Of a stretch of 64,000 nucleotides of DNA, positions 7,309-62,046 are shown piece by piece. The translations under genes and the position numbers were made by a program. The stretch is from positions 1 through 64,000 of the forward strand of contig JAFGIP010000041.1 of the NCBI GenBank assembly GCA_016929525.1, read 5' to 3'. Each line of letters begins with the position of its first letter. Positions within the stretch are counted from its first letter, which is position 1. This stretch comes from Bacteroidales bacterium. GTDB lineage: Bacteria > Bacteroidota > Bacteroidia > Bacteroidales > UBA10428. The notes below the pieces were generated by a model. That model did not search any database and was not told where the DNA came from. It saw nothing but the letters and a program-made list of their open reading frames with translations.

Positions 7309-9195
7309 ATGAAAAATAAATTAATTCTGATCCGACCAATTTTAATATTGATTTTATCGCTTCATTCGGTAAATTTTTATGCTCAGACTGATATTCCTGC
7401 CGGTGATGTTTACGGAACATGGTCTAAATTATACTCTCCTTATCATATTAATGGTGATATCACTATTCCGAACGATTCAACTTTAATTATTGAACATGGA
7501 GTTAGGGTCGAGTTTACCGGTCTTTATGAGTTAGATGTGCAGGGAACACTTTTAGCTGAAGGGCTGATAAACGACAGTATTGTTTTCACAGTCAGCGACA
7601 CAACAGGTTATTATAACAATACACACACAGGCTGGAAAGGTATACAATTCTTAAATACTCCTGCAACCAATGATTCTTCCAAACTTGTTTATTGCCTGCT
7701 TGAGTATGGAAAATCTGTTGCTAGTACAGGATCAAATTCGGACCCTGATAAAGTTGGCGGAGCATTATACATCTGGGGATTTAACAAAATATTATTATAT
7801 GGAATTGAAATTCGTTTTAGTAAAGCCTATTCAGCAGGAGGAGGCATGGTGGTCGTTAACCAGGCACAGGGGAAGGAAGTAACCATATTATATTCAAATA
7901 TCCACAATAATACTTTAATAGACTGCTGTTGGGGAGGCGGAATTTACGCACAGGGAGATCTTAACCTGATAGGATGCCATATATATGATAATAGTGCAGG
8001 CGCCGGAGGGGGAATATATATTGAATCTGCTGATAATCTTTTTATCGGTAGTTCAGTTATATCTAACAATTCTGCCAATGGATATGGTGGTGGTATAAAT
8101 TGTTTATACATTGATAAAGTCTTCCTTGATAATAACCTTATTTGTAATAATTCGGCAGTTAATAAAGGAGGCGCAATTTATATTGAAAATTCAAATTCCT
8201 ATATTGTAAACAACACCATCAGCTATAATATGTCAACCGATTCTGCCGGAGGAATATTTTCGGTACATAATATTTTATATTCAGATACAATAATGAACTC
8301 CATAATATGGGGTAACACAGCTACCAATGTTGATTCATCCATTACCGGCGAATTCGTTGTTAATTATTCCGACATTGAAGGCGGATCTGAAGGTGTTGGT
8401 AATATAAATCAGGATCCATTGTTTGCATCCCCCTCAGCAGGTGCCGGAGTATTGTATGACGGTATTGCAGCAGACTGGACATTACAAACATCGTCGCCAT
8501 GCATTAATACCGGTAATCCCGGGCTGACTTATGCCGAAACCGATTTAAACGGATATCCCAGGATTGACTGTATGAGCGATACAATTGATATAGGCGCTTA
8601 TGAATTTGTACCAGATATATTGGCTCCTGTTGTTAATGGTGAAACGATACATATTTCTGAGAATACTGCAAACAATACAATTGTCCATACTGTTAAAGGA
8701 AGTAATGTAGTTTATTTTAATATTATTAGTGGAAATACAAATAATACCTTTTCTCTCGATTCAATAACAGGGATTATTCGCGTAAATAACAATCAGTTTC
8801 TTAATCATGAAACAACTCCGTTCTATGAATTAATTGTAAGAGGTTATAATTGTACTTATTCAGATAACCTGGTAACACTATTCGTTGATGATGCTGCTGT
8901 AAATATTCTAGAAAGTGAAACCTCAGAAAATAACATAAATATTTTCCCGAATCCGGTAAAAGAAAATCTGTTTATGACCATTAATCTTGACCGAACCCAA
9001 CATGTAGATATTGCTATTTACAATTGCACAGGTCAAATAGTTAAACAATTGTATTCGGGTGAAATCAAGCAGGGTAGTCAACAATTAAACTGGCCAATAA
9101 ATAATTCAGAAGGTTTAAAACTTTCTTGTTTAATGTACATACTCCAAATTAAGGGTGAAACATTTAACAGGACACTGAAGTTTTGTGTTGAATAA
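7309..9195 (+). CDS. T9SS-secreted right-handed beta-helix protein
   Basis: The 628-residue protein carries a signal peptide (ends NFYAQT) and a parallel beta-helix region at about residues 40-420. That region has repeated Gly-rich rungs such as GGGIYAQGDL, GGGIYIESAD and GGAIYIENSN spaced by N-x-S/N turns. A segment with the pattern CINTGNPGL, TDLNGYPR and DIGAYEF is the choice-of-anchor-Q-like end cap seen on such helices. Residues about 440-530 look like a cadherin-type beta-sandwich (FSLDSITGIIRVN). The last about 85 residues form a type A T9SS sorting domain (NIFPNPVKENLFM, then IYNCTGQIVKQL). It should be exported and attached to the cell surface, probably binding or cleaving a polysaccharide. 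No catalytic residues could be identified. Confidence 0.88.
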   Translation: MKNKLILIRPILILILSLHSVNFYAQTDIPAGDVYGTWSKLYSPYHINGDITIPNDSTLIIEHGVRVEFTGLYELDVQGTLLAEGLINDSIVFTVSDTTGYYNNTHTGWKGIQFLNTPATNDSSKLVYCLLEYGKSVASTGSNSDPDKVGGALYIWGFNKILLYGIEIRFSKAYSAGGGMVVVNQAQGKEVTILYSNIHNNTLIDCCWGGGIYAQGDLNLIGCHIYDNSAGAGGGIYIESADNLFIGSSVISNNSANGYGGGINCLYIDKVFLDNNLICNNSAVNKGGAIYIENSNSYIVNNTISYNMSTDSAGGIFSVHNILYSDTIMNSIIWGNTATNVDSSITGEFVVNYSDIEGGSEGVGNINQDPLFASPSAGAGVLYDGIAADWTLQTSSPCINTGNPGLTYAETDLNGYPRIDCMSDTIDIGAYEFVPDILAPVVNGETIHISENTANNTIVHTVKGSNVVYFNIISGNTNNTFSLDSITGIIRVNNNQFLNHETTPFYELIVRGYNCTYSDNLVTLFVDDAAVNILESETSENNINIFPNPVKENLFMTINLDRTQHVDIAIYNCTGQIVKQLYSGEIKQGSQQLNWPINNSEGLKLSCLMYILQIKGETFNRTLKFCVE

Positions 9196-9521
9196 CTGTG
9201 ACGCCAATATTTATACTTTTCACACTGTCAGATTGTTTTATTAATATTATAAACTTCTTTCTTTTCTATAAGTGTCAATTATTTCAGTAAATAAAATAAA
9301 TAATGCTACCTAACGGCTTATTTATAATGTCGTAATAGGCCATAATCCGTTAAAATTAAACGCTCGACACTTTTTCATTTAATAAAATAGTACTGGATTC
9401 TGCCAGGAATTTATATTATAAACAGGTATACCAAGAAAATATACATTGTTTACCTGGTTATAATATGTAGAAGACTTAACGAGTGTGCAATAAAAATGCT
9501 AAGCAAAATGTGAATTATTTT
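9196..9521. other. convergent intergenic region
   Basis: These 326 bases lie between converging genes. An imperfect inverted repeat TAACGG (9311-9316) / CCGTTA (9347-9352) could mark transcription termination, but no T-tract follows on the plus strand. Nothing else is recognisable. Confidence 0.4.
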
Positions 9522-9785
9522 TTACCCCTGCTTTGAAGAACTGTTAACGATTAAATTATACAGCCAAGCAAAGATGACTCCTCCAATTAAACCATCAACT
9601 AATCCCCAGGCCAAACCAATAAGGCTTCCAAGCGGACTTATATTGTAACCCCTGTAAACTACAGCAAGAATGGTCTTGGTACCTGTAGCACCCTCAAACA
9701 TAATTACCCACCAGGTAAGGAGAAATAAACCGATACCGCAGACAAGTGCAGCTGTCAATGCAAATGCTTTTACGTTGAGTTTCAT
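9522..9785 (-). CDS. small two-helix membrane protein
   Basis: The 87-residue protein has two hydrophobic segments (about 9-30 and 50-75) joined by a short loop with YRGYNISPLGSLIGL. Similar proteins are, as I recall, labelled bacteriophage holin in public annotations, but no phage gene is near and the family is widespread on bacterial chromosomes, so a holin role should not be assumed. It sits about 150 bp beyond the 3' end of the APC permease on the same strand and may be transcribed with it or alone. Confidence 0.7.
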   Translation of the reverse strand: MKLNVKAFALTAALVCGIGLFLLTWWVIMFEGATGTKTILAVVYRGYNISPLGSLIGLAWGLVDGLIGGVIFAWLYNLIVNSSSKQG

Positions 9786-9938
9786 TTTCTTTTTCTTTTA
9801 GTTAATAATTCTTTAAAATTAAATTATGTATAAAACAAAATCATTAATGATAGATCCATTAATTATTGCAGTTTAACGATTTTATCATTTAATGTCAATT
9901 AAATTATAAGAATTTTATCAGAAAATAAAATTGACGGA

Positions 9939-11291
9939 TTACATTGTGCTACTAAATCTGTTCTTCTTTTTAAGCCATTTATACACTATTACACCCAACA
10001 AAATTGTAATTATTGCAATTGAAGATTCGACAGGTCTCTCAAAATAAGCAAGTACAAGAATTATAGTGCATGGCAGAACATACAGAAGCGGGAAAAAATC
10101 GTATACTGATCTGAAAAGCTTTTGACCATTCATTAATTTCAGTTTGTAAACCGACAGGACAGCTATTATAGGGAATATTCCAAGCGAGAACCCGAGATAT
10201 GTTAATATCTGATCGAATGTTCCCGAAAGCAGAATTATTAAAGAAACTCCTGCTTGCAGTAAAATAGCTTTCGCCGGCACATTATGTCTGGGATTTACTT
10301 CTGCAGCAAAACGAAAAAAACAGCTGTCTCTGGCCATAGCATAATACACCCTTGGACCAAGAATTATAAATGCACTCAAAGAAGATATCAGGACAAATGA
10401 TATAAGTACTGAAATGATCTTTTCGAAAACGGGTCCAAATGCTAATGAAGCAGAAAATGCACCTACCGAAATAATACCTTCCATTTCTTTTCCGGAAGAA
10501 TAAATGAAAAATATATTCAGAAAAAAATACAGGATCATCACTACTCCGGTGCCAAGTATTAAAGATCCGGGGATATTACGGGAAGGCATTTTTATTTCAG
10601 ACCCGATATATGTAGCAGCATTCCAGCCGCTATAGGCAAACATGATCCACATAAGTGAAAGCCCGATCGATTTCATTCCGGCAAAATCAAATTGAAATGT
10701 TGTTTCAGGCACCAGATTTGAAATGTTTCCTTTCCCTGCTAACAGTCCCGCGCCAATCAGTCCTGCAATTAGGATAATCTTTAGAACAGTAAGTACATTT
10801 TGAATTAGGGTGCCAGTTTTTATTCCCCTCAGATGAATAATAGTAAAAAGCACAACAATTAAAACAGCGCTGATTTTTTTAAATACTTTCAAACTGATGG
10901 ATTCAAATAACTGACCCGATGCCTCTGAATGATAAATTGCGGCCCCAAGATATTCCCCAAAACCAATTGCCGATGCTGCTATGGCAGTCGAGAAACCAAC
11001 TATAAATGATACCCACCCGCTTAAAAAGCCCAGCAAGGGATGGTACAATCTGGAAAGAAATACATACTCCCCTCCCGCCTCCGGTATTACCGAACCCAAC
11101 TTACCATAACTCAAGGCTCCCATCAAAGCAATGAGTCCGCCTACCAACCAAAGCACAAGCATTACCACAGGATTGTGCAATTTTTCCATCAGCAAACCTG
11201 AGATGGTAAAAATGCCCGCACCAATCATGTTGGCGATAACAATATTGGTAACGGGAAACAAACCAAGCTGCCTATTCAGGTCGTTTTTCAT
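9939..11291 (-). CDS. APC-family amino acid permease
   Basis: The 450-residue protein has about twelve membrane helices. It carries the hallmark of the amino acid-polyamine-organocation family in the first helix (MIGAGIFTISG, the unwound substrate-binding GAGIF) and a second conserved segment (PEAGGEYVFLSRLY). It should import an amino acid or a related amine across the inner membrane in symport with protons or by exchange. The substrate cannot be deduced from sequence. No neighbouring catabolic gene gives a clue. Confidence 0.9.
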   Translation of the reverse strand: MKNDLNRQLGLFPVTNIVIANMIGAGIFTISGLLMEKLHNPVVMLVLWLVGGLIALMGALSYGKLGSVIPEAGGEYVFLSRLYHPLLGFLSGWVSFIVGFSTAIAASAIGFGEYLGAAIYHSEASGQLFESISLKVFKKISAVLIVVLFTIIHLRGIKTGTLIQNVLTVLKIILIAGLIGAGLLAGKGNISNLVPETTFQFDFAGMKSIGLSLMWIMFAYSGWNAATYIGSEIKMPSRNIPGSLILGTGVVMILYFFLNIFFIYSSGKEMEGIISVGAFSASLAFGPVFEKIISVLISFVLISSLSAFIILGPRVYYAMARDSCFFRFAAEVNPRHNVPAKAILLQAGVSLIILLSGTFDQILTYLGFSLGIFPIIAVLSVYKLKLMNGQKLFRSVYDFFPLLYVLPCTIILVLAYFERPVESSIAIITILLGVIVYKWLKKKNRFSSTM

Positions 11292-47171: not shown

Positions 47172-48350
47172 ATGCTAACACTCAACGAAGCCTACAAGGT
47201 TTATAATAAAATTGCATTTCAGCTTCCAGTAGAAGAAGTCAGTTTAACAACTGCCTTAAACCGGGTTTTGAGTGAAGATATCATTACGGACATAAATATG
47301 CCTCCTTTTGATAAATCTGCTGTTGATGGTTATGCTTTTTGTGCGGATGATCAAAATAAAACACTACAAGTGATAGATGCAGTATATGCAGGTTCATCTT
47401 CTGTAAAAAAAGTGAACCACGGAACCTGTATTAAGATAACGACCGGAGCGCCAGTTCCGAAGGGTGCCGATGCCGTTGTTATGATTGAGGATATAACAGA
47501 CCTGGGAGACGGATTCATTGAAATAAATCGTAAACCTGCAAAATCTAACATTTGCAAAATGGGCGAAGATATCGTCAGTGGAGAAACAATTCTGGAAAAA
47601 GGCACCCTGATTTTACCGCAACAAATAGCAGTTCTGGCTTCTGCGGGAAATACAAAGCCTAAAGTATTCACCTTACCAAGAGTAGCGATAATTGCTACAG
47701 GAAATGAAATTATTGAACCAGACCGGGAACCAAATGCTTCACAAATTCGAAACAGCAACTCATATAATCTTCTCGGTCAACTTTTAAAAATTGGCATAAC
47801 CGGAAATTATATGGGAATTGTTGCAGATGATAAGGATGATATTACCGGTAGATTAAAAAACGCTCTAAATGCGCAGGATATAGTAATTATAACAGGGGGA
47901 GTATCTGTTGGAGAACACGATTATATACCTTATGTTTTAGAAGAGCTGGGATTGGAACTTCAATTTGATAAGCTGGCCATACAGCCTGGTAAGCCTGTTT
48001 CATTTGCATCATCAGAAAATAAATTCTGTTTTGGACTGAGTGGAAATCCGGTTTCATCATTTCTTCAGTTTGAGCTATTGGTTAAGCCCCTTATCTATAA
48101 GATAATGAACTACGAATATAAATTACCGTTTATTGTTACTGAACTGTCAGGTACCTTAAAAAGGAAAAATGCAGAACGGTTGAAATTTGTACCGGTTAAG
48201 CTGGATAAAAAAGGTGCCGCCAGGGAAGTGGCTTTCAATGGATCGGCTGATATAGTAGGTCTCACAAAAGCAGATGGTTTCGCCATGTTTCCAAAAGACT
48301 GCGAAGTGTTAACAACGGGCGAAAAAGTTGAAGTACTTTTAATACTATGA
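47172..48350 (+). CDS. moeA: molybdopterin molybdotransferase
   Basis: The 392-residue cytoplasmic enzyme inserts molybdate into adenylylated molybdopterin. Family motifs are present: MPPFDKSAVDGYAF, the substrate loop GAPVPKGADAVVMIED, IATGNEI and the central TGGVSVGEHDYIPYVLEELG with PGKPVSFA and GLSGNPVSSF. It lies 5 bp after the MobB-like gene and its stop overlaps moaC (ATGA). Together with mobA and moaC it indicates active molybdenum cofactor synthesis; moaA, moaD and moaE are not in this window. Confidence 0.94.
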   Translation: MLTLNEAYKVYNKIAFQLPVEEVSLTTALNRVLSEDIITDINMPPFDKSAVDGYAFCADDQNKTLQVIDAVYAGSSSVKKVNHGTCIKITTGAPVPKGADAVVMIEDITDLGDGFIEINRKPAKSNICKMGEDIVSGETILEKGTLILPQQIAVLASAGNTKPKVFTLPRVAIIATGNEIIEPDREPNASQIRNSNSYNLLGQLLKIGITGNYMGIVADDKDDITGRLKNALNAQDIVIITGGVSVGEHDYIPYVLEELGLELQFDKLAIQPGKPVSFASSENKFCFGLSGNPVSSFLQFELLVKPLIYKIMNYEYKLPFIVTELSGTLKRKNAERLKFVPVKLDKKGAAREVAFNGSADIVGLTKADGFAMFPKDCEVLTTGEKVEVLLIL

Positions 48351-48793
48351 AACAGTTTAGTCATACCAACGATAAGGGAAAAGCCCAAATAGTTGATGTT
48401 AGCAATAAACCTGATATAAAACGCACTGCTTTGGCAGAAGGCTTTATTCATCTTTCTGAAGAAACAGTTCAACTCATCAGGGAAAACAATATAAAAAAAG
48501 GCGATGTCATCACAGTTGCAAGAATAGCAGGCATTCAGGCAGCCAAGCGAACAGCAGAAATTATACCTCTTTGTCATCCTTTACCAATCCATAATATTAA
48601 AATCTCAGAAGAAATTCATGATAACGGCGTTCTTATTAAAGCAGAAGTGACTACAACCGGCAAAACGGGTGTTGAAATGGAAAGTCTTGTCGCAGTATGT
48701 TCAGCACTTCTCACTATTTATGATATGTGCAAGGCAGTAGATAAAAACATGGTTATCGATAAAATTAAGCTTACCGAAAAACGAAAAGGATAA
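48347..48793 (+). CDS. moaC: cyclic pyranopterin monophosphate synthase
   Basis: The 148-residue enzyme catalyses the second half of the first cofactor step, after MoaA makes the 3',8-cyclo-GTP intermediate. Conserved pieces seen are QIVDVSNKPDIKRTA, IPLCHPLPIHNIKI, TTGKTGVEMESL and LTIYDMCKAVDK. The length is close to the usual 155-160. It overlaps the end of moeA by ATGA, so it closes the operon. No terminator is obvious after it. Confidence 0.94.
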   Translation: MKQFSHTNDKGKAQIVDVSNKPDIKRTALAEGFIHLSEETVQLIRENNIKKGDVITVARIAGIQAAKRTAEIIPLCHPLPIHNIKISEEIHDNGVLIKAEVTTTGKTGVEMESLVAVCSALLTIYDMCKAVDKNMVIDKIKLTEKRKG

Positions 48794-53951: not shown

Positions 53952-56186
53952 ATGACAACTCGCAGAGATTTTATTAAAATATCAGGTATTGGTATTAGTG
54001 GTTTAATGGCAGGTGGTGGAGCTGCATACCGTGCCATGGCACAAACTTTAAATAAAGAAATTGGTGGACATATATCTGATAAACGAACACCCACATATTG
54101 CGAAGTATGTTTTTGGAAATGCGCCGGTTGGGTTTATAAAAATGATAAGGGAAATATCTGGAAAATTGCAGGTAACAAGGAAGATTATCATTGTAATGGG
54201 CGTTTTTGTCCACGGGGTACCGGAGGTGTCGGGATGTATTACGATGAAGACAGACTGAAAACTCCGCTTATCAGAGAAGGTAAAAGAGGAAGCCAGTATT
54301 TCAGGCAAGCTACATGGGAAGAAGCACTTGATAAGATTGCAGACGGAATGAAAAAGATTGCCAGAGAACATGGTCCCGAATGTATTGCACTTTTTACTCA
54401 TGGTTCAGGAGGAGCTTATTTCGGCCGTTTGCTTAAAGCATTTGGATCTCCCAATATAGCTGCCCCAAGTTACGCTCAATGCCGCGGACCCCGTGAAGTT
54501 GCATTCATTGCCACATATGGTGAAGGTGTTGATTCACCCGAAAGAACAGATATCAGGGATACAAGATGTTTAGTCCTGATTGGTTCACATATAGGAGAAA
54601 ATATGCACAACGGGCAGGTTCAGGAAATGTCGGATGCAATTGATAAAGGTGCTTCCATAATAACTGTTGACCCGCGTTTTTCGACTGCTGCCAGTAAATC
54701 AAAGTTTTGGTTACCTATAAAGCCCGCTACCGATTTAGCTTTGCTGTTAGCGTGGATTCACATAATAATTGAAGAAGGATGGTATGATAAGGAATATGTA
54801 AAAAAATATACTTTCGGATTCGAAGAATTAAAGCAGCACGTAAAAGACATGACCCCGGAATGGGCATACGGAATTACTACAATTAAACCAAATATTATCA
54901 GAGAAACGGCTCGTGAAATGGCAAATGCTGCACCTTCGGTAATCATCCATCCGGGGAGACATGTTACCTGGTACGGAGACGATACACAAAGATTAAGAGC
55001 TGTGGCAATACTAAATGCTATACTGGGATCATGGGGACGCAGAGGTGGTTTTTATATCCCTGATAAGATAAGCGTTCCTGATTATCCTCATCCTCCGTAT
55101 CCAAAACCACAAAGAACATGGCGTGAGGCTTTCCCGGGTAAATTCCCGTTAGCAGGTTTAGCCCTTGCATCCGGATTATGTGATGCTACTATTCCAAATG
55201 CATCGCGCGACTGTTCAATTAAAGGATGGTTGGTTGACGGTACAAACCTCATTGAAACTTTACCTAATCAGAAAAATACTATTGAAGCTATTCAGAGTCT
55301 TGATCTTCTTGTTGTTGTTGATACAATGCCTATGGAAATAACAGGCTGGGCAGATGTTGTATTGCCTGAATGTACATATCTGGAAAGGTATGACATGATT
55401 CGCACCAGTCCCCACCGTAAACCTCAAATTGCATTGCGTATGCCGGCCGCCGAACCAAAGTATAATACAAAACCCGCAGAGTGGATGGCCAAAGAATTAG
55501 CAAAACGACTAAATCTGGAAGAATATTTTGCCTGGAATTCCATGGAAGATATGCTTGACTGGCAATTAAAGCAACTTGGATCATCGCTTGAAGAAATGCA
55601 ACGTGTTGGAGTTAAGACTTTCCCCAGAGAGTACGATGATCTGTACTTCCCGGACGGAGAGGAAATTTCATTTAATACCAACACGGGAAAAATAGAATTG
55701 TACAGCACCGAATTTGCGGATGCAGGTTTCGATCCAATTCCCACTTACACTGCACACGAAGAGCCCCCTGATGGATTTTACAGGCTTAACTATGGTCGCG
55801 GACCTGCACATACATTTAGCCGAACATCCAATAATGCAAATTTAACAGATATCATGGATGAGAATGTGCTTTGGATCAATCCAAAGGTAGCAAGGGAATG
55901 GGGAATTAAGAGCGGTCAAAAAATATGGCTTAAAAACCAGGATGGCGTTGTATCTCAATTTCCGATAAAAGCACGTGTTACGGAGCGTATCCGCTGGGAT
56001 TCCGTTTTTATGGTACATGGTTTCGGGCACAATGATAAGCGTCTGACACGATGTTATGGCAAAGGAGCCAGTGATACTTCAATGATTACACGGGTGCATA
56101 CAGATCCACTTATGGGAGGAACAGGCATGCGTGGCAATTTTGTAACATTTTTTTTTGAACCTGAAAAAGAGGAGGCCACATTATGA
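53952..56186 (+). CDS. Tat-exported molybdopterin oxidoreductase, polysulfide/thiosulfate reductase-like (PsrA group)
   Basis: The 744-residue catalytic subunit begins with a twin-arginine signal (TTRRDFIKISG). A [4Fe-4S] site C50-x2-C53-x3-C57...C86 (CEVCFWKC, CNGRFCPRG) follows. The molybdenum ligand is likely C177 in SYAQCRGPRE, the position that is Cys in PsrA of Thermus, versus Ser, SeCys or Asp in other groups. It binds the bis-guanine dinucleotide cofactor made by the upstream operon. The neighbouring PsrB- and PsrC-like genes and sulfur transporters favour a sulfur substrate, but arsenate or tetrathionate relatives cannot be excluded by reading alone. The next gene starts within its stop codon (ATGA). 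Confidence 0.88.
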   Translation: MTTRRDFIKISGIGISGLMAGGGAAYRAMAQTLNKEIGGHISDKRTPTYCEVCFWKCAGWVYKNDKGNIWKIAGNKEDYHCNGRFCPRGTGGVGMYYDEDRLKTPLIREGKRGSQYFRQATWEEALDKIADGMKKIAREHGPECIALFTHGSGGAYFGRLLKAFGSPNIAAPSYAQCRGPREVAFIATYGEGVDSPERTDIRDTRCLVLIGSHIGENMHNGQVQEMSDAIDKGASIITVDPRFSTAASKSKFWLPIKPATDLALLLAWIHIIIEEGWYDKEYVKKYTFGFEELKQHVKDMTPEWAYGITTIKPNIIRETAREMANAAPSVIIHPGRHVTWYGDDTQRLRAVAILNAILGSWGRRGGFYIPDKISVPDYPHPPYPKPQRTWREAFPGKFPLAGLALASGLCDATIPNASRDCSIKGWLVDGTNLIETLPNQKNTIEAIQSLDLLVVVDTMPMEITGWADVVLPECTYLERYDMIRTSPHRKPQIALRMPAAEPKYNTKPAEWMAKELAKRLNLEEYFAWNSMEDMLDWQLKQLGSSLEEMQRVGVKTFPREYDDLYFPDGEEISFNTNTGKIELYSTEFADAGFDPIPTYTAHEEPPDGFYRLNYGRGPAHTFSRTSNNANLTDIMDENVLWINPKVAREWGIKSGQKIWLKNQDGVVSQFPIKARVTERIRWDSVFMVHGFGHNDKRLTRCYGKGASDTSMITRVHTDPLMGGTGMRGNFVTFFFEPEKEEATL

Positions 56187-56716
56187 GATATGCAATGGCA
56201 GTTGACACAAAAAAATGTGTGGGTTGCTCAGATTGTGTAGTGGCCTGTCAGACTGAAAATAATGTTCCTATTGGTTACTGCCGCGACTGGGTTGTTGAAG
56301 TTACGAACGGTACATATCCTCAGCTTGAAATTGAAATCAGAAGTGAAAGGTGTAATCACTGTGATAATGCTCCTTGCGTCAGATGTTGTCCAACAGGTGC
56401 CAGTCACTTCAGTGACGGTGGTATTGTGCTTGTAAAAGAAAAAAAATGTATCGGTTGCGGAGCGTGTATCGCTTCATGTCCGTATGATGCACGCTACCCC
56501 CACCCCGAAGGATATGTTGATAAATGTACTTTTTGTCTGCACAGGGTAAAAAAGGGATTACAACCTGCCTGTGTTGCAGTCTGTCCTACAAAATGCATGT
56601 ATTTCGGTGATCTTGATGACCCGAAAAGTGATGTCTCGGTTATTCTAAAAAAACGAAAGTGGAAAACACTCATACCTGAAGCAGGGACAAAACCCGAATT
56701 GTATTTCTTAATCTGA
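56183..56716 (+). CDS. PsrB-like four-cluster ferredoxin subunit
   Basis: The 177-residue protein carries four [4Fe-4S] cluster motifs with the usual Cys-rich spacing: C12-x2-C15-x2-C18-x3-C22 at the start, then RCNHCDNAPCVRCCP, KKCIGCGACIASCP and DKCTFCLHRV with ACVAVCP. It passes electrons between the membrane NrfD-type subunit and the molybdenum subunit in the periplasm. It has no signal peptide and is probably co-exported with the Tat-signal catalytic subunit. It overlaps the upstream gene by 4 nt. Confidence 0.94.
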   Translation: MRYAMAVDTKKCVGCSDCVVACQTENNVPIGYCRDWVVEVTNGTYPQLEIEIRSERCNHCDNAPCVRCCPTGASHFSDGGIVLVKEKKCIGCGACIASCPYDARYPHPEGYVDKCTFCLHRVKKGLQPACVAVCPTKCMYFGDLDDPKSDVSVILKKRKWKTLIPEAGTKPELYFLI

Positions 56717-56729
56717 AACATTTTAGAAC

Positions 56730-57671
56730 ATGAAGGAAGAAATAATCATAAGCGGCAGAATGAATCCAAAAATAGACCCGGTGTTAAATATCTGGCATTG
56801 GGAGATCCCTCTATACTTGTTTCTCGGAGGTCTTGCTGCCGGCATACTTTTCTTTGCTGCATTATACATTATCCTGAAAAAAGAAGATGAATTTCCCACT
56901 GCTGTAAAAAAAGCCCCCTTAATTACACCTTTTCTGCTTATTATTGGTCTCATTGCCTTGCTTCTTGACTTAAATCATAAACCCTATTTCTGGCAACTTT
57001 ACACAACAATAAAAATTCAGTCACCGATGTCATGGGGAGCATGGACACTTATGGTTGTTACACCTTTATCCTTTATCTGGGCTGCCTTAAATATTAAGGA
57101 GATATTTCCAACCTGGGACTGGAATATCTCATTTTTAAAACAGTTTGAAATCTGGTGTAGAAAGAACATTTTACCCATAGCATGGATTACAATAACATTC
57201 TCGGTTATTCTTGGAATTTATACAGGAATACTCTTTTCAGCATTCAATGCACGTCCTCTTTGGAATACTTCAATCCTGGGACCGTTATTTCTGACATCGG
57301 GTTTGTCAACAGGTGCAGCCGCAATAATGCTGATGAGTAAGAATCATATAGAAAGAAAGGCTTTTGCACGAATCGATCTTTTACTAATTGCCATCGAACT
57401 ATTTCTGATAACACACATGTTCATGGGTTTCATGGCAAGCACGCAAGTGCAAATAGAAGCTGCCCGCTTATTTCTTGGTGGCCCTTATACAGCGTCATTC
57501 TGGGTGTTTGTAGTTGGGCTGGGACTGGTTGTGCCGGCTTTCCTCGAAGTACTGGAATTGTCCCGGAGAAAAATACCTGTAATAGTACCGGCAACTTTAG
57601 TGCTGTTCGGAGGTATTATGATGCGTTTTATCCTGGCATATGCCGGGCAGGCCAGTAGATGGCTCTATTAA
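56730..57671 (+). CDS. NrfD/PsrC-like membrane anchor subunit
   Basis: The 313-residue protein has about eight membrane helices and typical NrfD-family signatures: WHWEIPLYLFLGGLAAGILF at the start, QSPMSWGAWTLMVVTPLSF, SAFNARPLWNTSILGPLFLTSGLSTGAA and LFLGGPYTASFWVFVVGLGL. It oxidises quinol in the membrane and feeds electrons to the PsrB-like subunit. It starts 13 bp after that gene, and the sulfur transporter genes follow at once, so all are one transcript. Confidence 0.94.
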   Translation: MKEEIIISGRMNPKIDPVLNIWHWEIPLYLFLGGLAAGILFFAALYIILKKEDEFPTAVKKAPLITPFLLIIGLIALLLDLNHKPYFWQLYTTIKIQSPMSWGAWTLMVVTPLSFIWAALNIKEIFPTWDWNISFLKQFEIWCRKNILPIAWITITFSVILGIYTGILFSAFNARPLWNTSILGPLFLTSGLSTGAAAIMLMSKNHIERKAFARIDLLLIAIELFLITHMFMGFMASTQVQIEAARLFLGGPYTASFWVFVVGLGLVVPAFLEVLELSRRKIPVIVPATLVLFGGIMMRFILAYAGQASRWLY

Positions 57672-57699: not shown

Positions 57700-58224
57700 A
57701 TGAATAAAGGAAATAAATATTTAAACCCATACATTGGCGGAATACTTTTGGGGTTGGTGTTGCTGGTTGCCAACTTTATATCCGGCAGAGGACTGGGAGC
57801 CAGCGGAGCTGTTAAAAGTACTATCCTTGCAGGTGTGAAAACAGTAGCTCCCGGCCATTATGATAATGCTGCCTACTATAAGGAATACCAGGAAGATCAT
57901 AAAGAAAAAAGTCCATTGAACAATTGGCTGGTATTTGAAATGATGGGGGTGCTGGTAGGTGGTTTTTTATCGGGGGCAGTTGCAGGCCGACTAAAATTAA
58001 AAGTGGAACATTCACCGCGGATAACCTCAAGACGAAGGATGATTTTTGCCCTGCTTGGAGGAATACTGTTTGGATTTGGTTCACAGATGGGAAGAGGATG
58101 TACAAGTGGTTCAGCACTAAGTGGCATGGCAGTGCTCTCACTCGGTGGTTTTATAACTATGGCAGGCATATTTGGAACCGCCTTTGCTTTTGCTTACTTC
58201 TTCAGAAAAAACTGGATTCAATAA
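57700..58224 (+). CDS. YeeE/YedE half-length sulfur transporter, first copy
   Basis: The 174-residue membrane protein has about four hydrophobic segments and the family signature GRGCTSGSALSGMAVLS with a conserved Cys used in thiosulfate movement by YeeE/TsuA. An earlier GRGLGASGAVKS lies at the start, and a lysine-rich loop (about 60-75) is likely cytoplasmic. Full-length YeeE is about 350 residues with two such halves in one chain; here the halves seem split in separate genes, this being the first. Its stop lies 107 bp before the second copy, with a repeat array between them. Confidence 0.88.
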   Translation: MNKGNKYLNPYIGGILLGLVLLVANFISGRGLGASGAVKSTILAGVKTVAPGHYDNAAYYKEYQEDHKEKSPLNNWLVFEMMGVLVGGFLSGAVAGRLKLKVEHSPRITSRRRMIFALLGGILFGFGSQMGRGCTSGSALSGMAVLSLGGFITMAGIFGTAFAFAYFFRKNWIQ

Positions 58225-58331: not shown

Positions 58332-58922
58332 ATGGCACCATTGGTTTCTTATGATATAATATCACAAAACACAAATTTACCTTTAGCATTTGCAATAGGA
58401 ATTGGGTTTGGCTGGGTACTCGAAAGTAGTGGTTTCTCTTCGAGTCGTAAACTTGCCGGTGTTTTTTACGGATACGATACTGTGGTTCTGAAAGTATTTT
58501 TTACCGGGGCAATAACGGCAATGATTGGTTTACTTTTTTTCAGTTTGTTCGGATGGATAGATTTAAATCTCGTATATGTCAATCCTACATTTCTTACATC
58601 AGCCATTTTGGGAGGCGTAATAATGGGTCTTGGATTTATTATGGGTGGTTTCTGCCCGGGAACAAGCTTTTGCGCAGCTTCAATTGGAAAAATAGACGCT
58701 ATGGTCTTCATTGGCGGATTATTCATCGGGGTTTTTATTTTTACAGAGGGTTATCCCCTATGGGAAGGTATTTATAAAGCAAATTTTCAGGGATACCCGA
58801 AAATCAGCACTTCGCTTAATCTATCAGATGGCATACTTGCATTGTTAGTAATACTTGCGGCAGTTGGCATGTTCTGGGCAGGTGAATGGGCTGAGAAGAA
58901 ATTCCCGCAGGCAGAGTATTAA
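58332..58922 (+). CDS. YeeE/YedE half-length sulfur transporter, second copy
   Basis: The 196-residue membrane protein has about five helices and the second-half signatures: GIGFGWVLESSGFSSSRKLAGVFYG and GFIMGGFCPGTSFCAASIGKIDAM with two cysteines placed for relaying sulfur. It should pair with the first copy to make a complete transport path for thiosulfate or a similar compound into the cytoplasm. No good Shine-Dalgarno is visible before its ATG, because the repeat array runs up to 9 bp from it. It is followed after 15 bp by the rhodanese-like gene. Confidence 0.88.
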   Translation: MAPLVSYDIISQNTNLPLAFAIGIGFGWVLESSGFSSSRKLAGVFYGYDTVVLKVFFTGAITAMIGLLFFSLFGWIDLNLVYVNPTFLTSAILGGVIMGLGFIMGGFCPGTSFCAASIGKIDAMVFIGGLFIGVFIFTEGYPLWEGIYKANFQGYPKISTSLNLSDGILALLVILAAVGMFWAGEWAEKKFPQAEY

Positions 58923-58937
58923 TAAAAAAATAAAAAA

Positions 58938-59561
58938 ATGAATACTAGAATTATTATATCGATCGTATTTGTCGGGCTTGGACTTATAATTGCCGCAGTA
59001 CCGCAAAATGTGACCCTTCCATATAAGCTAACGGCAGAAGAAATGTTGGTAGAATCAAATAACAGGGTACAATTTTATAGTCCGGAGGAAATAGCTGAGA
59101 TTATTATACAGAAGAACCCTGAATTTCAACTTATCGATGTCAGATCGCAGGATGAATATGAAAAATTTAGTCTGCCAAATTCAATTAATATCCCACTTAC
59201 CGATATTCTTGCCGATGAATATCGTGACCTGCTGCATCAGGATATTAAAAGAAATATCTTTTTCTCAAACGGAACAGTAAATGCAATGAAAGCATGGATG
59301 ATTACACGTCAGCTCGGATGGGAAAATAATTATGTAATGGAAGGAGGATTAAATTACTGGGCAGAAGTAATTATGAATCCCATTCCTCCTGCTTCGACAA
59401 GTCCCAATGAGGAAATAGCAAAATACGAATTCCGAAAAGCTGCAGGTGAAGCAATTCATGGGAATACCAGTATTAAAATAAAGGCCAGCACAACTATTGA
59501 AATTGCCAGACCACCCATAAAACGCAAAAACACCAAACAACGGGTACAGGGAGGATGCTAG
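58938..59561 (+). CDS. membrane-anchored rhodanese-fold protein with Cys-to-Ser active site and C-terminal GGC
   Basis: The 207-residue protein has an N-terminal signal/anchor helix (IIISIVFVGLGLIIAAV) and one rhodanese domain at about 45-145 (FQLIDVRSQDEYEKF, GGLNYWAE). The active-site loop, normally starting with the persulfide-forming Cys, reads FFSNGTVNA, with Ser at 110. The only cysteine in the whole chain is residue 207, the last, in a basic tail ending VQGGC. That arrangement suggests a mobile thiol arm, or loss of the classical activity. It closes the sulfur operon, 15 bp after the second transporter gene. Confidence 0.85.
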   Translation: MNTRIIISIVFVGLGLIIAAVPQNVTLPYKLTAEEMLVESNNRVQFYSPEEIAEIIIQKNPEFQLIDVRSQDEYEKFSLPNSINIPLTDILADEYRDLLHQDIKRNIFFSNGTVNAMKAWMITRQLGWENNYVMEGGLNYWAEVIMNPIPPASTSPNEEIAKYEFRKAAGEAIHGNTSIKIKASTTIEIARPPIKRKNTKQRVQGGC

Positions 59562-59807
59562 ATCTATAAATGTTCTATTAAAAAATAATATTTTGGTATT
59601 TGTAATTTCTTAATCACCGGCATTTATTCCAATGAATACATTCTTTAGTGTATCAATTGTCATGATTGTAAGTTAATGGTTTTATTTAAACTCTTCTTAT
59701 TGTTAAAAATTAAAACACTTTATTATTATTCTTATTTCATAAATCATAAATTATTTGATCCTTTGTAATACTTTTTGCAGCACTTTCAAAATAATTTCGT
59801 CTTAATA

Positions 59808-60398
59808 ATGAATTCAAACAGCGACGAACGAAGAATTTCAAAAGAAGAGATGAGCGCACTAATTAGTGCCTGCAGAAAAAATAACAGGGTTGCTCAGATA
59901 AAGTTATACGATCTTTATTCCAAAAGCATGTACAATACATGCCTGAGAATTGTAAAAGACAGTATGCTGGCTGAAGACATCGTTCAGGAATGTTTCCTGA
60001 CAGCTTTTCAATCGATAGGTAGTTTCAGAGGTGATAGTTCTTTCTTTTCGTGGCTTAGAAAAATAGTAATTAACAGATCGCTTGATCAGATAAGAAAAAG
60101 AAAAAAGTTCTTTGAACAGATAGATGAGGAATCGGACAATTATTCAGATGAAATAGTCGATCAAAAAAAAGACGATGTCGATGAATTCGACCAGGAAAGA
60201 CTGGCACTTTTAAAAAAACTAATATTGGAACTTCCTGAAGGATTCAGAATCATTATTTCACTTTATTTCTTTGAAGGTTATGATCATGAAGAAATTGCCC
60301 AGATACTTGATATAACACCATCAACATCAAGATCGCAACTTACACGAGCAAAAAGGAAACTACTTAAAATGTATAAAGAACAAACAAGTTCAACGTAA
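59808..60398 (+). CDS. ECF-type RNA polymerase sigma factor
   Basis: The protein of about 196 residues has sigma region 2 (KLYDLYSKSMYNTCLRIVKDSMLAEDIVQECFLTAF, FSWLRKIVINRSLDQIRKRKK). Region 4 shows ELPEGFRIIISLYFFEGYDHEEIAQILDITPSTSRSQLTRAKRKL, the helix-turn-helix that reads the -35. I start at the ATG at 59808; a TTG at 59775 adds eleven residues. The gene is followed by a small membrane protein and a DUF4097-like protein, a typical Bacteroidota envelope-stress arrangement. Confidence 0.93.
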   Translation: MNSNSDERRISKEEMSALISACRKNNRVAQIKLYDLYSKSMYNTCLRIVKDSMLAEDIVQECFLTAFQSIGSFRGDSSFFSWLRKIVINRSLDQIRKRKKFFEQIDEESDNYSDEIVDQKKDDVDEFDQERLALLKKLILELPEGFRIIISLYFFEGYDHEEIAQILDITPSTSRSQLTRAKRKLLKMYKEQTSST

Positions 60399-60440
60399 GT
60401 TTTAACTATGGTTAAACCAGGATAGAAAAACACAGCAACT

Positions 60441-60923
60441 ATGCTAGAAAATTTATTAAATAATAAAGATCCAATTTTCAATGATGACCTCCCAAAAGGA
60501 CATCGTGAAAGATTTGCTGATAAACTGGATTCCCGGCTGCATTCGGAAAGCAAAAATCGGTTCGCTGATTATTATACTGCAGCGGCGTCTGTTTTAGTGC
60601 TGATTACAACTGGTGTAATAATAATCCTTCTTCTTAAGATTAACAGGCAGGATGATGAAGTATTGAGTGATGTATACCCTGAATTATATGAAACAGAGAT
60701 GTATTATATAAATGAAATAAGCAATAAAATGAATACCCTTACAAAACACAGGGAAATAAAGAAGAGTGTTCTAAAAGATATTAAAGAAATAGATAAATCA
60801 TTTATTACAATTAAAGAAGATCTGGAAGAAAATCCAGGTGACGAAAGATTAATAGATGCAGCAATAAATACATACCAGATAAAGCTTGAACTGATTAATA
60901 TGGTATTATCTCATATCAAATAA
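60441..60923 (+). CDS. small membrane protein, possible anti-sigma partner
   Basis: The 160-residue protein has a cytoplasmic N-terminus with LPKGHRERFADKLDSRLH, one membrane helix (about 46-67) and a helical charged C-terminal part outside. This single-pass layout next to an ECF sigma gene fits an anti-sigma factor. I see no zinc-binding HxxxCxxC motif, so it is not the ZAS type. It starts 42 bp after the sigma gene and 37 bp before the next gene; one operon is likely. The role is inferred from context. Confidence 0.6.
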   Translation: MLENLLNNKDPIFNDDLPKGHRERFADKLDSRLHSESKNRFADYYTAAASVLVLITTGVIIILLLKINRQDDEVLSDVYPELYETEMYYINEISNKMNTLTKHREIKKSVLKDIKEIDKSFITIKEDLEENPGDERLIDAAINTYQIKLELINMVLSHIK

Positions 60924-60960
60924 CTAAAATTTTTAAAAAAACCGAAAAATAAAATATATA

Positions 60961-62046
60961 ATGGAAACAAAGACAAGATATATAATAATTGGTGGTTGGT
61001 TGGTCATATTGAGCATCATTCTTCTGAACCTGACCAGTGCTCAGGAGAACGTAGTTGAAAAGACATTAAAAAAATATGCGGTTAAAGCTTCAACACAACT
61101 TAATATTGAAGCAAAATACAGTCACATTGATGTACGCGATTGGAATAAAAATGAAATCCAGGTTGAAGCTACAATAACTCTGTTCAATATAAGTAAACAA
61201 AAAGGGGAACAAATCCTTGATGAAATTAGTATTGACTTTTGGCAGGAAGGAGATGTAATACATGTGGCTACCAATTTTGAGGAATCATTTTTTAAGTCGT
61301 TTGGATGGAATCACAATGAAGATGATTTTAAAATAGAGATTGTTGTTATGATGCCATCGGATGTTAAAGTTGATATTGAAAATAAATATGGTAGTTTGTT
61401 TGTCAATAAACTGACATCCCAGTCAGTCCTGAGAGTAAAATACGGCAGTCTGAAAATAAATGAATTACTTGCAAAAGGGAAAGGGGAAATGGCAGAAGTA
61501 GATCTTGGCTATTCGAAAGGAAGCATTGAAAACTGTAAATGGTTAAAAGTAAATATTAAATACTCTAAGATCGATATTGAAAACAGCAAAGCATTAATCG
61601 TTGTGAGCAAGTATTCAAAAGTCAATATCGATGAAGCCAGCTCAATAGTGTGTGAGTCAAAATATGATACCTATGTAACAGGAAATGCAACAAATTTTGT
61701 GTGTGAGGCAGGATATTCAAATTTCAAATTCGATAAAATAAGAAAGAAAATACACCTTGAGACCAAGTATACAGATGTAAAAGCAGATTATATCCCACCA
61801 ACTTTCGAATCAATCAGCATCGATAACAGTTATGGTTCCATATCGCTGTATATTGATCCCGAAGCATCTTACAGATTAAACGGATATGCAAAGTATGCTA
61901 AAATACATTATCCTGACAATGCCCGGGTAAACCGAGTCCAGGAAAATAATGAACTTACTGTAAAAGGTACAATAGGTGGAGAAAAGGGTGAACTCCCCAC
62001 CGTAAAAATTGAAACTAAATATGGCGGAATTAAGTTAAGTCGATAG
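60961..62046 (+). CDS. exported DUF4097-like adhesin-type protein
   Basis: The 361-residue protein has a signal-like first helix (IIIGGWLVILSIILLNL). A repetitive beta-helix-like mature part follows, in which motifs of the type IEAKYSHIDVRDW, VDIENKYGSLFVNKL, LRVKYGSLKINEL and INIKYSKIDIENSK recur about every twenty residues. This is the pattern of DUF4097/putative adhesin (DUF2807-like) proteins that commonly follow ECF sigma and anti-sigma genes. It may be the regulated target. Its last 17 nt overlap the 3' end of cysQ on the other strand. Confidence 0.82.
   Translation: METKTRYIIIGGWLVILSIILLNLTSAQENVVEKTLKKYAVKASTQLNIEAKYSHIDVRDWNKNEIQVEATITLFNISKQKGEQILDEISIDFWQEGDVIHVATNFEESFFKSFGWNHNEDDFKIEIVVMMPSDVKVDIENKYGSLFVNKLTSQSVLRVKYGSLKINELLAKGKGEMAEVDLGYSKGSIENCKWLKVNIKYSKIDIENSKALIVVSKYSKVNIDEASSIVCESKYDTYVTGNATNFVCEAGYSNFKFDKIRKKIHLETKYTDVKADYIPPTFESISIDNSYGSISLYIDPEASYRLNGYAKYAKIHYPDNARVNRVQENNELTVKGTIGGEKGELPTVKIETKYGGIKLSR

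Follow-up and report, generated by a model that had tools for sequence, protein, structure and literature searches.

What can a rhodanese do once it has lost its active-site cysteine and keeps a single cysteine as the last residue of the chain? The question is raised by the gene at 58938-59561 (+ strand, ATG to TAG, 207 amino acids) of a Bacteroidales bacterium, located in the 64,000-nucleotide stretch analysed here (the window: contig JAFGIP010000041.1, positions 1 to 64,000). The protein belongs to the rhodanese superfamily (PF00581 over residues 49-143, at 59082-59366; 51.1 bits, cut-off 22.2), and the catalytic cysteine position of the rhodanese loop is occupied by Ser110 (codon TCA, 59265-59267, + strand), so that the loop cysteine of a rhodanese-type sulfurtransferase is missing. 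The gene ends with GGA GGA TGC TAG (59550-59561), which encodes Gly205-Gly206-Cys207-stop, preceded by Gln, and Cys207 is the sole cysteine of the protein. The initial annotation had described these traits (a serine in the loop of an otherwise preserved rhodanese fold; an only cysteine at residue 207, after two glycines), and all of them were recovered. Selenocysteine or other recoding at the gene end was ruled out by the codons themselves (TGC and then TAG), and a frameshift by the orthologues, which share length and ending. The hydrophobic N-terminal helix (residues 3-19, at 58944-58994, + strand), also present in the AlphaFold model, is a signal anchor that would place the rhodanese domain in the periplasm. 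A search of the source genome, with a loose first filter, found no second PF00581 rhodanese, and consequently no rhodanese with a catalytic cysteine was seen that might be its partner.

The gene is the last of a Psr/Phs-type operon, encoded on the + strand: a molybdopterin catalytic subunit of the Psr/Phs type (53952-56186), whose best PDB match is 2vpw, a chain deposited as thiosulfate reductase (E 2.3e-199), and whose score with the NCBIfam PhsA model is 461.9 bits, below the cut-off of 694; a 4Fe-4S electron-transfer subunit, NrfC/PsrB-like by its Pfam and NCBIfam matches (56183-56716); an NrfD/PsrC-type membrane subunit (56730-57671; PF03916, E 6e-48); and two short YedE/PmpAB-like transporter halves identified with Pfam, half A (57700-58224, PmpA-like, the C-terminal half of PF04143, with an RGC motif) and half B (58332-58922, PmpB-like, the N-terminal half of PF04143, with an FCPGT motif). 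The molybdenum, FeS and NrfD subunits are thus of the right type for a Psr/Phs complex, as judged from sequence matches. The cysteine motifs of both halves are conserved, the RGC of half A in 122 of 127 relatives and the [FY]CPG of half B in 133 of 136, as in transporters of the PmpAB/YedE1E2 kind. The neighbours named by the initial annotation, two sulfur transporter halves and a polysulfide-reductase-like complex, were therefore confirmed by the Pfam, NCBIfam and PDB matches. A reading of the flanking sequence gave MoeA-like and MoaC-like molybdenum-cofactor genes at 47172-48793, about 5 kb upstream of the molybdenum operon, and, downstream (59775-62046), an ECF-sigma-like gene together with genes for a short membrane protein and for a protein predicted to be secreted, which probably form a separate regulatory unit. 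MobA-like genes adjoin the same type of operon in two other loci (L003, L004), and the source genome has, on contig C52 (22107-23063), further YedE-like (PF04143) pieces that make up a second set, with which no second rhodanese was found.

The named sequences nearest to the protein belong to genome bins of Bacteroidales or Bacteroidetes. Homologues were present in 12 of the 23 genomes of the taxonomic family. In the order, 149 of 247 genomes had homologues at E 1e-8, a loose cut-off that takes in generic rhodaneses, and of 395 genomes sampled across the phylum 54 had them at E 1e-18. The DNA surrounding more than 100 homologue loci was fetched for context reading, and the counts were made on the rhodaneses encoded directly after, or fused to, the second transporter half (134, of which 133 complete). 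A terminal Gly-Cys, followed by zero to two residues, was found in 131 of the 133 complete homologues, and the loop cysteine was absent in 132, which have Ser, Ala, Gly or Thr in its place. One of the two tail-less exceptions reads KKAVQGGCS-stop in another frame and looks like a frameshift. Within the Mo/NrfD-YedE context, where the initial annotation had asked whether the loop serine and the terminal Gly-Cys occur together, both were present in 69 of the 74 complete homologues; all 74 had the tail Gly-Cys and none had a loop cysteine, so that the reverse arrangement (loop cysteine kept, terminal cysteine absent) was not encountered there. In the alignments, the loop column is Ser in 87% and the next residue Asn in 95% of 87 homologues, and each of the three Gly-Gly-Cys columns is 99% conserved, the residues just before them being far more variable (V at 203 in 39%, E at 204 in 22%; alignment A2).

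None of the 1,077 non-rhodanese open reading frames of at least 200 amino acids in the fetched loci ended in GGC(x), smaller frames being checked as well, which puts the tail of the family far above chance; chance or a sequence error at the tail of the window protein was ruled out by the same survey. This background also bears on the idea that the Gly-Gly-Cys tail marks proteins for sorting or processing by an enzyme acting on many of them: its position at the C-terminus and the short tip common to each operon would suit such a signal, but its restriction to rhodanese-type proteins near these loci makes the idea very improbable. Outside Bacteroidota, a rhodanese encoded on a Gemmatirosa plasmid (NZ_CP007129.1, L195:5998-6570), downstream of frames that read like two YedE halves, has a Ser loop and, as its only cysteine, the final residue (Arg-Arg-Arg-Gly-Cys). 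No homologue of the tail-thiol rhodanese was found in phage records. The family is a large and apparently undescribed bacterial group of rhodanese-fold proteins devoid of the active-site cysteine and carrying a cysteine at the tail tip; a search of open-access papers gave no description of Gly-Gly-Cys-tailed rhodaneses and no biochemistry on any family member.

The AlphaFold2 model of the protein (87 homologues, mean pLDDT 84.7) has a confident rhodanese fold, the N-terminal helix and a helix at residues 157-175, and the nearest structures to the model and to the family profile are solved rhodaneses (Foldseek, PDB profile matches). Residues 176-207 (59463-59558, + strand) have low confidence (pLDDT 43-59), read as predicted disorder. 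The basic tail of about 60 residues announced by the initial annotation can be refined: the disordered arm comprises about 32 residues and the other half holds the confident helix. The linker between Ala169 and the tail cysteine varies between 33 and 45 residues (86 homologues), a length that could allow a return to the pocket, and the Ser-Asn-Gly loop and other pocket residues are kept in the separate, unfused proteins. Both observations would suit an arm that folds back, placing Cys207 in a rhodanese pocket, either its own or that of a sister protein, and restoring an ordinary sulfurtransferase site in which Ser110-Asn111 and the conserved Asp-x-Arg and Gly-Gly motifs bind the substrate. The tail was not seen placed in a pocket in the AlphaFold models of the single protein and of a natural YedB::rhodanese fusion, the transporter part of the latter being too low in confidence to reveal docking of the tip, and its tail disordered. 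We consider this folding back unlikely, for reasons that come from the fusions and from the tails of sister proteins described below.

Two genomic settings were found, and the YedE transporter pair is the element common to both. In the first, the Mo/FeS/NrfD complex precedes the YedE halves and the rhodanese; in the second, as seen in the loci read, the genes that precede them are those of an octaheme-type cytochrome (best PDB match 1sp3, E 1.5e-123; PF11783) and a cytochrome b561, and half B carries the rhodanese as a fusion. Most fusion operons read have the octaheme cytochrome in place of the molybdenum complex. The Gly-Gly-Cys tip is invariant in the 31 fusions aligned, as is the cysteine of the transporter CPGT motif, while the rhodanese part, its loop included, has degenerated strongly and lost most of its conserved residues, which argues against a tip working in its own domain's pocket. 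A further YedB::rhodanese fusion (L095) has no tail. All of the 207 tail-bearing rhodaneses with judgeable surroundings lie near YedE, but so do all of the 34 tail-less rhodaneses judged, counts that reflect a sampling begun from this rhodanese family and fetched loci centred on its operons. A probable lipoprotein rhodanese with both a loop cysteine and a Gly-Ser-Gly-Gly-Cys tail (L006:10724-11296) was observed beside an octaheme-type cytochrome (8543-10138). The preservation of the fold together with the loss of the loop cysteine could also be explained by a protein that serves the molybdenum reductase or the transporter as scaffold or chaperone, with no catalysis, and whose cysteine binds a metal or senses redox state; this is quite improbable, given that the tail has a single terminal cysteine and, in the alignment, no other conserved metal ligand, and that sulfur transport is at issue in both settings.

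In many operons there are two or three rhodaneses with the tail, some of them tandem-domain proteins whose loop cysteines are ordinary; a tail that coexists with loop cysteines is no simple substitute for them, which speaks again against folding back. The tails of one operon resemble each other: identity over the five residues before GGC was 0.60 within and 0.18 between operons (51 operons, 95 pairs; maximum of 500 shuffles 0.24). Composition was rejected as the cause, since a position-scrambled control with the same tail residues gave 0.29. The likeness falls to background 22 residues upstream, and the rhodanese domains of same-operon pairs are only about 25% identical. Restricted to operons with molybdenum genes, tail-tip identity was 0.76 within and 0.25 between (38 operons), and 0.75 and 0.25 when one pair per unfused operon was taken; the fusion operons gave 0.32 and 0.23 (shuffle maximum 0.35, not significant), limiting the argument for a shared reader to the molybdenum context. 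Recent gene conversion of the tails is unlikely, because codons at shared tail residues agree no more than codon usage predicts (0.54 observed, 0.49 expected); an old exchange of tails followed by selection is compatible with these values. Near-identical tips on domains about 25% identical suggest that a single partner reads all the tails of an operon, and such an external common reader is a further argument against folding back. Among 63 molybdenum operons, the molybdenum subunit and transporter half A are the genes that tail likeness tracks best, though weakly, and this holds with all proteins cut to 125 columns (partial 0.17 each), in what is a weak test open to phylogenetic noise.

In three loci (L180, L181, L191) the second rhodanese of the operon ends in Cys-Pro-Asp-Leu-Asn, with the cysteine five residues from the end, while its sisters keep Gly-Gly-Cys; in L175, L178 and L179, three different rhodaneses of one operon all have a tail that finishes in a run of glycines and the last cysteine. 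An extra short, cysteine-free rhodanese-like protein (L027:10472-10942, and relatives in L018, L020, L021 and L035) occurs after a rhodanese of the Asp-Gly-Gly-Cys-Glu type, and the same loci encode a divergent two-domain rhodanese on the opposite strand.

The likeness of tails within an operon could alternatively reflect mutual pairing, the terminal cysteine being a permanent attachment (a disulfide between sister tails or between tail and transporter, or a lipid or other modification) by which the tail assembles the complex and carries no sulfur. The frequent richness of the tails in lysine would agree with this. Nevertheless the tail is kept in operons with a single rhodanese, such as that of the window, and in YedB fusions already joined covalently; a membrane anchor is already there at the N-terminus, and the linker is of variable length. 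Permanent attachment is accordingly improbable.

Four known kinds of system come closest. SoxY, which has the C-terminal motif GGCGG, visits several enzymes, among them the molybdenum enzyme SoxCD. Its carrier cysteine is held on a peptide swinging arm (PMC5336275). The proteins described here likewise have their cysteine after Gly-Gly, at the tip of a C-terminal arm predicted to be flexible; they differ from SoxY in their fold (rhodanese, according to the model and Foldseek), in their membrane anchor, and in an operon tied to a reductase-type complex, SoxY being tied to the oxidative Sox enzymes. No gene for the partner SoxZ was present among the Pfam matches of the operon. Sud of Wolinella succinogenes is a rhodanese-fold protein acting beside the Psr-type polysulfide reductase in the periplasm by means of its loop cysteine and is not known to have a Gly-Gly-Cys arm. 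Its structure (PDB 1qxn) matches the family profile (E 1.7e-5), and the position of the gene is also that of Sud, a rhodanese-fold protein being encoded beside a Psr-type reductase in the 74 complete homologues of Mo/NrfD operons; unlike Sud, these proteins have a Ser in the loop and the cysteine at the C-terminus. The family thus has a SoxY-like arm in the place of Sud, yet it is neither, because the SoxY fold, SoxZ and the loop cysteine of Sud are absent. DsrC/TusE, a sulfur-trafficking protein, also has a cysteine in a flexible C-terminal arm, but its fold is different, it is cytoplasmic, the cysteine is penultimate and no link to a transporter is known. As for the transporter, PmpA/PmpB-type proteins are two short YeeE-type halves with one conserved functional cysteine each (PMC11582611), and the YedE1E2 half transporters of Cupriavidus import zero-valent sulfur (PMC10812762). 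The halves found here, with a conserved cysteine in each, resemble these systems as well as YeeE/YeeD and SoxT. The partner of YeeE is the cytoplasmic, TusA-like YeeD (PMC11073785), whereas the linked or fused partner here is a rhodanese, probably periplasmic. Passage of sulfur from the cysteine of SoxY into a channel of the YeeE kind is described as conceivable (PMC11582611).

We favour as the simplest reading, at somewhat better than even odds, a sulfur-carrier arm that is borne by a rhodanese scaffold, is anchored to the membrane on its periplasmic side, and serves both the reductase of sulfur and the transporter of sulfane sulfur. The folded domain, having lost its catalytic cysteine, would be a dock or holder, and Cys207, at the tip of the arm, would be the working thiol, taking up a sulfur atom or a sulfur oxyanion as a persulfide or a thiosulfonate. 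The arm would move, its last ten or so residues being recognised by the partners; the loaded tip would be presented to the Psr/Phs-type molybdenum reductase and would exchange sulfur with the two-part YedE/PmpAB transporter, which would move sulfane sulfur across the inner membrane. This reading draws directly on the conserved tip, the lost loop cysteine, the predicted disorder, the operon context and the like tails pointing to a shared reader; from these we infer that the tip carries sulfur, whichever way it flows, and that the molybdenum enzyme and the transporter are the partners. The likeness of tails in the molybdenum operons points to the reductase as one reader, and the YedE pair is suggested as the second reader by its constant association and by the fusions. 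The conserved Ser-Asn-Gly loop counts against a carrier reading, since a pure carrier needs no pocket and the conservation suggests that the pocket still does something; the AlphaFold models, in which the tail enters no pocket, also count against it. The swinging arm proposed by the initial annotation agrees with a mobile arm (predicted disorder, conserved tip, drifting linker, tips common within operons), although its other half, a tail thiol replacing the fixed active site in the protein's own pocket, is open to doubt; instead, the arm may visit the molybdenum enzyme and the transporter.

More tentatively, these proteins could constitute a new class of covalent sulfur carriers of anaerobic sulfur metabolism: catalytically silent rhodaneses with interchangeable Gly-Gly-Cys tails, which both the molybdenum reductase and the YedE transporter would recognise as one and the same handle, several scaffolds feeding one enzyme without releasing sulfur. 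If this is true, the handle-type carrier would be the counterpart of SoxYZ on the reductive side. YedE/YeeE transporters and Psr/Phs-type reductases are both widespread, and the family bears on how reactive sulfur passes between them in the periplasm. Should the tail thiol be the carrier, mutation of one residue and the search for one defined modification would be enough to study it, and the like tails of each operon offer a natural code for the recognition of the partner. With the tail and loop pattern, annotators could also tell carrier rhodaneses apart from genuine sulfurtransferases across many genomes of Bacteroidota.
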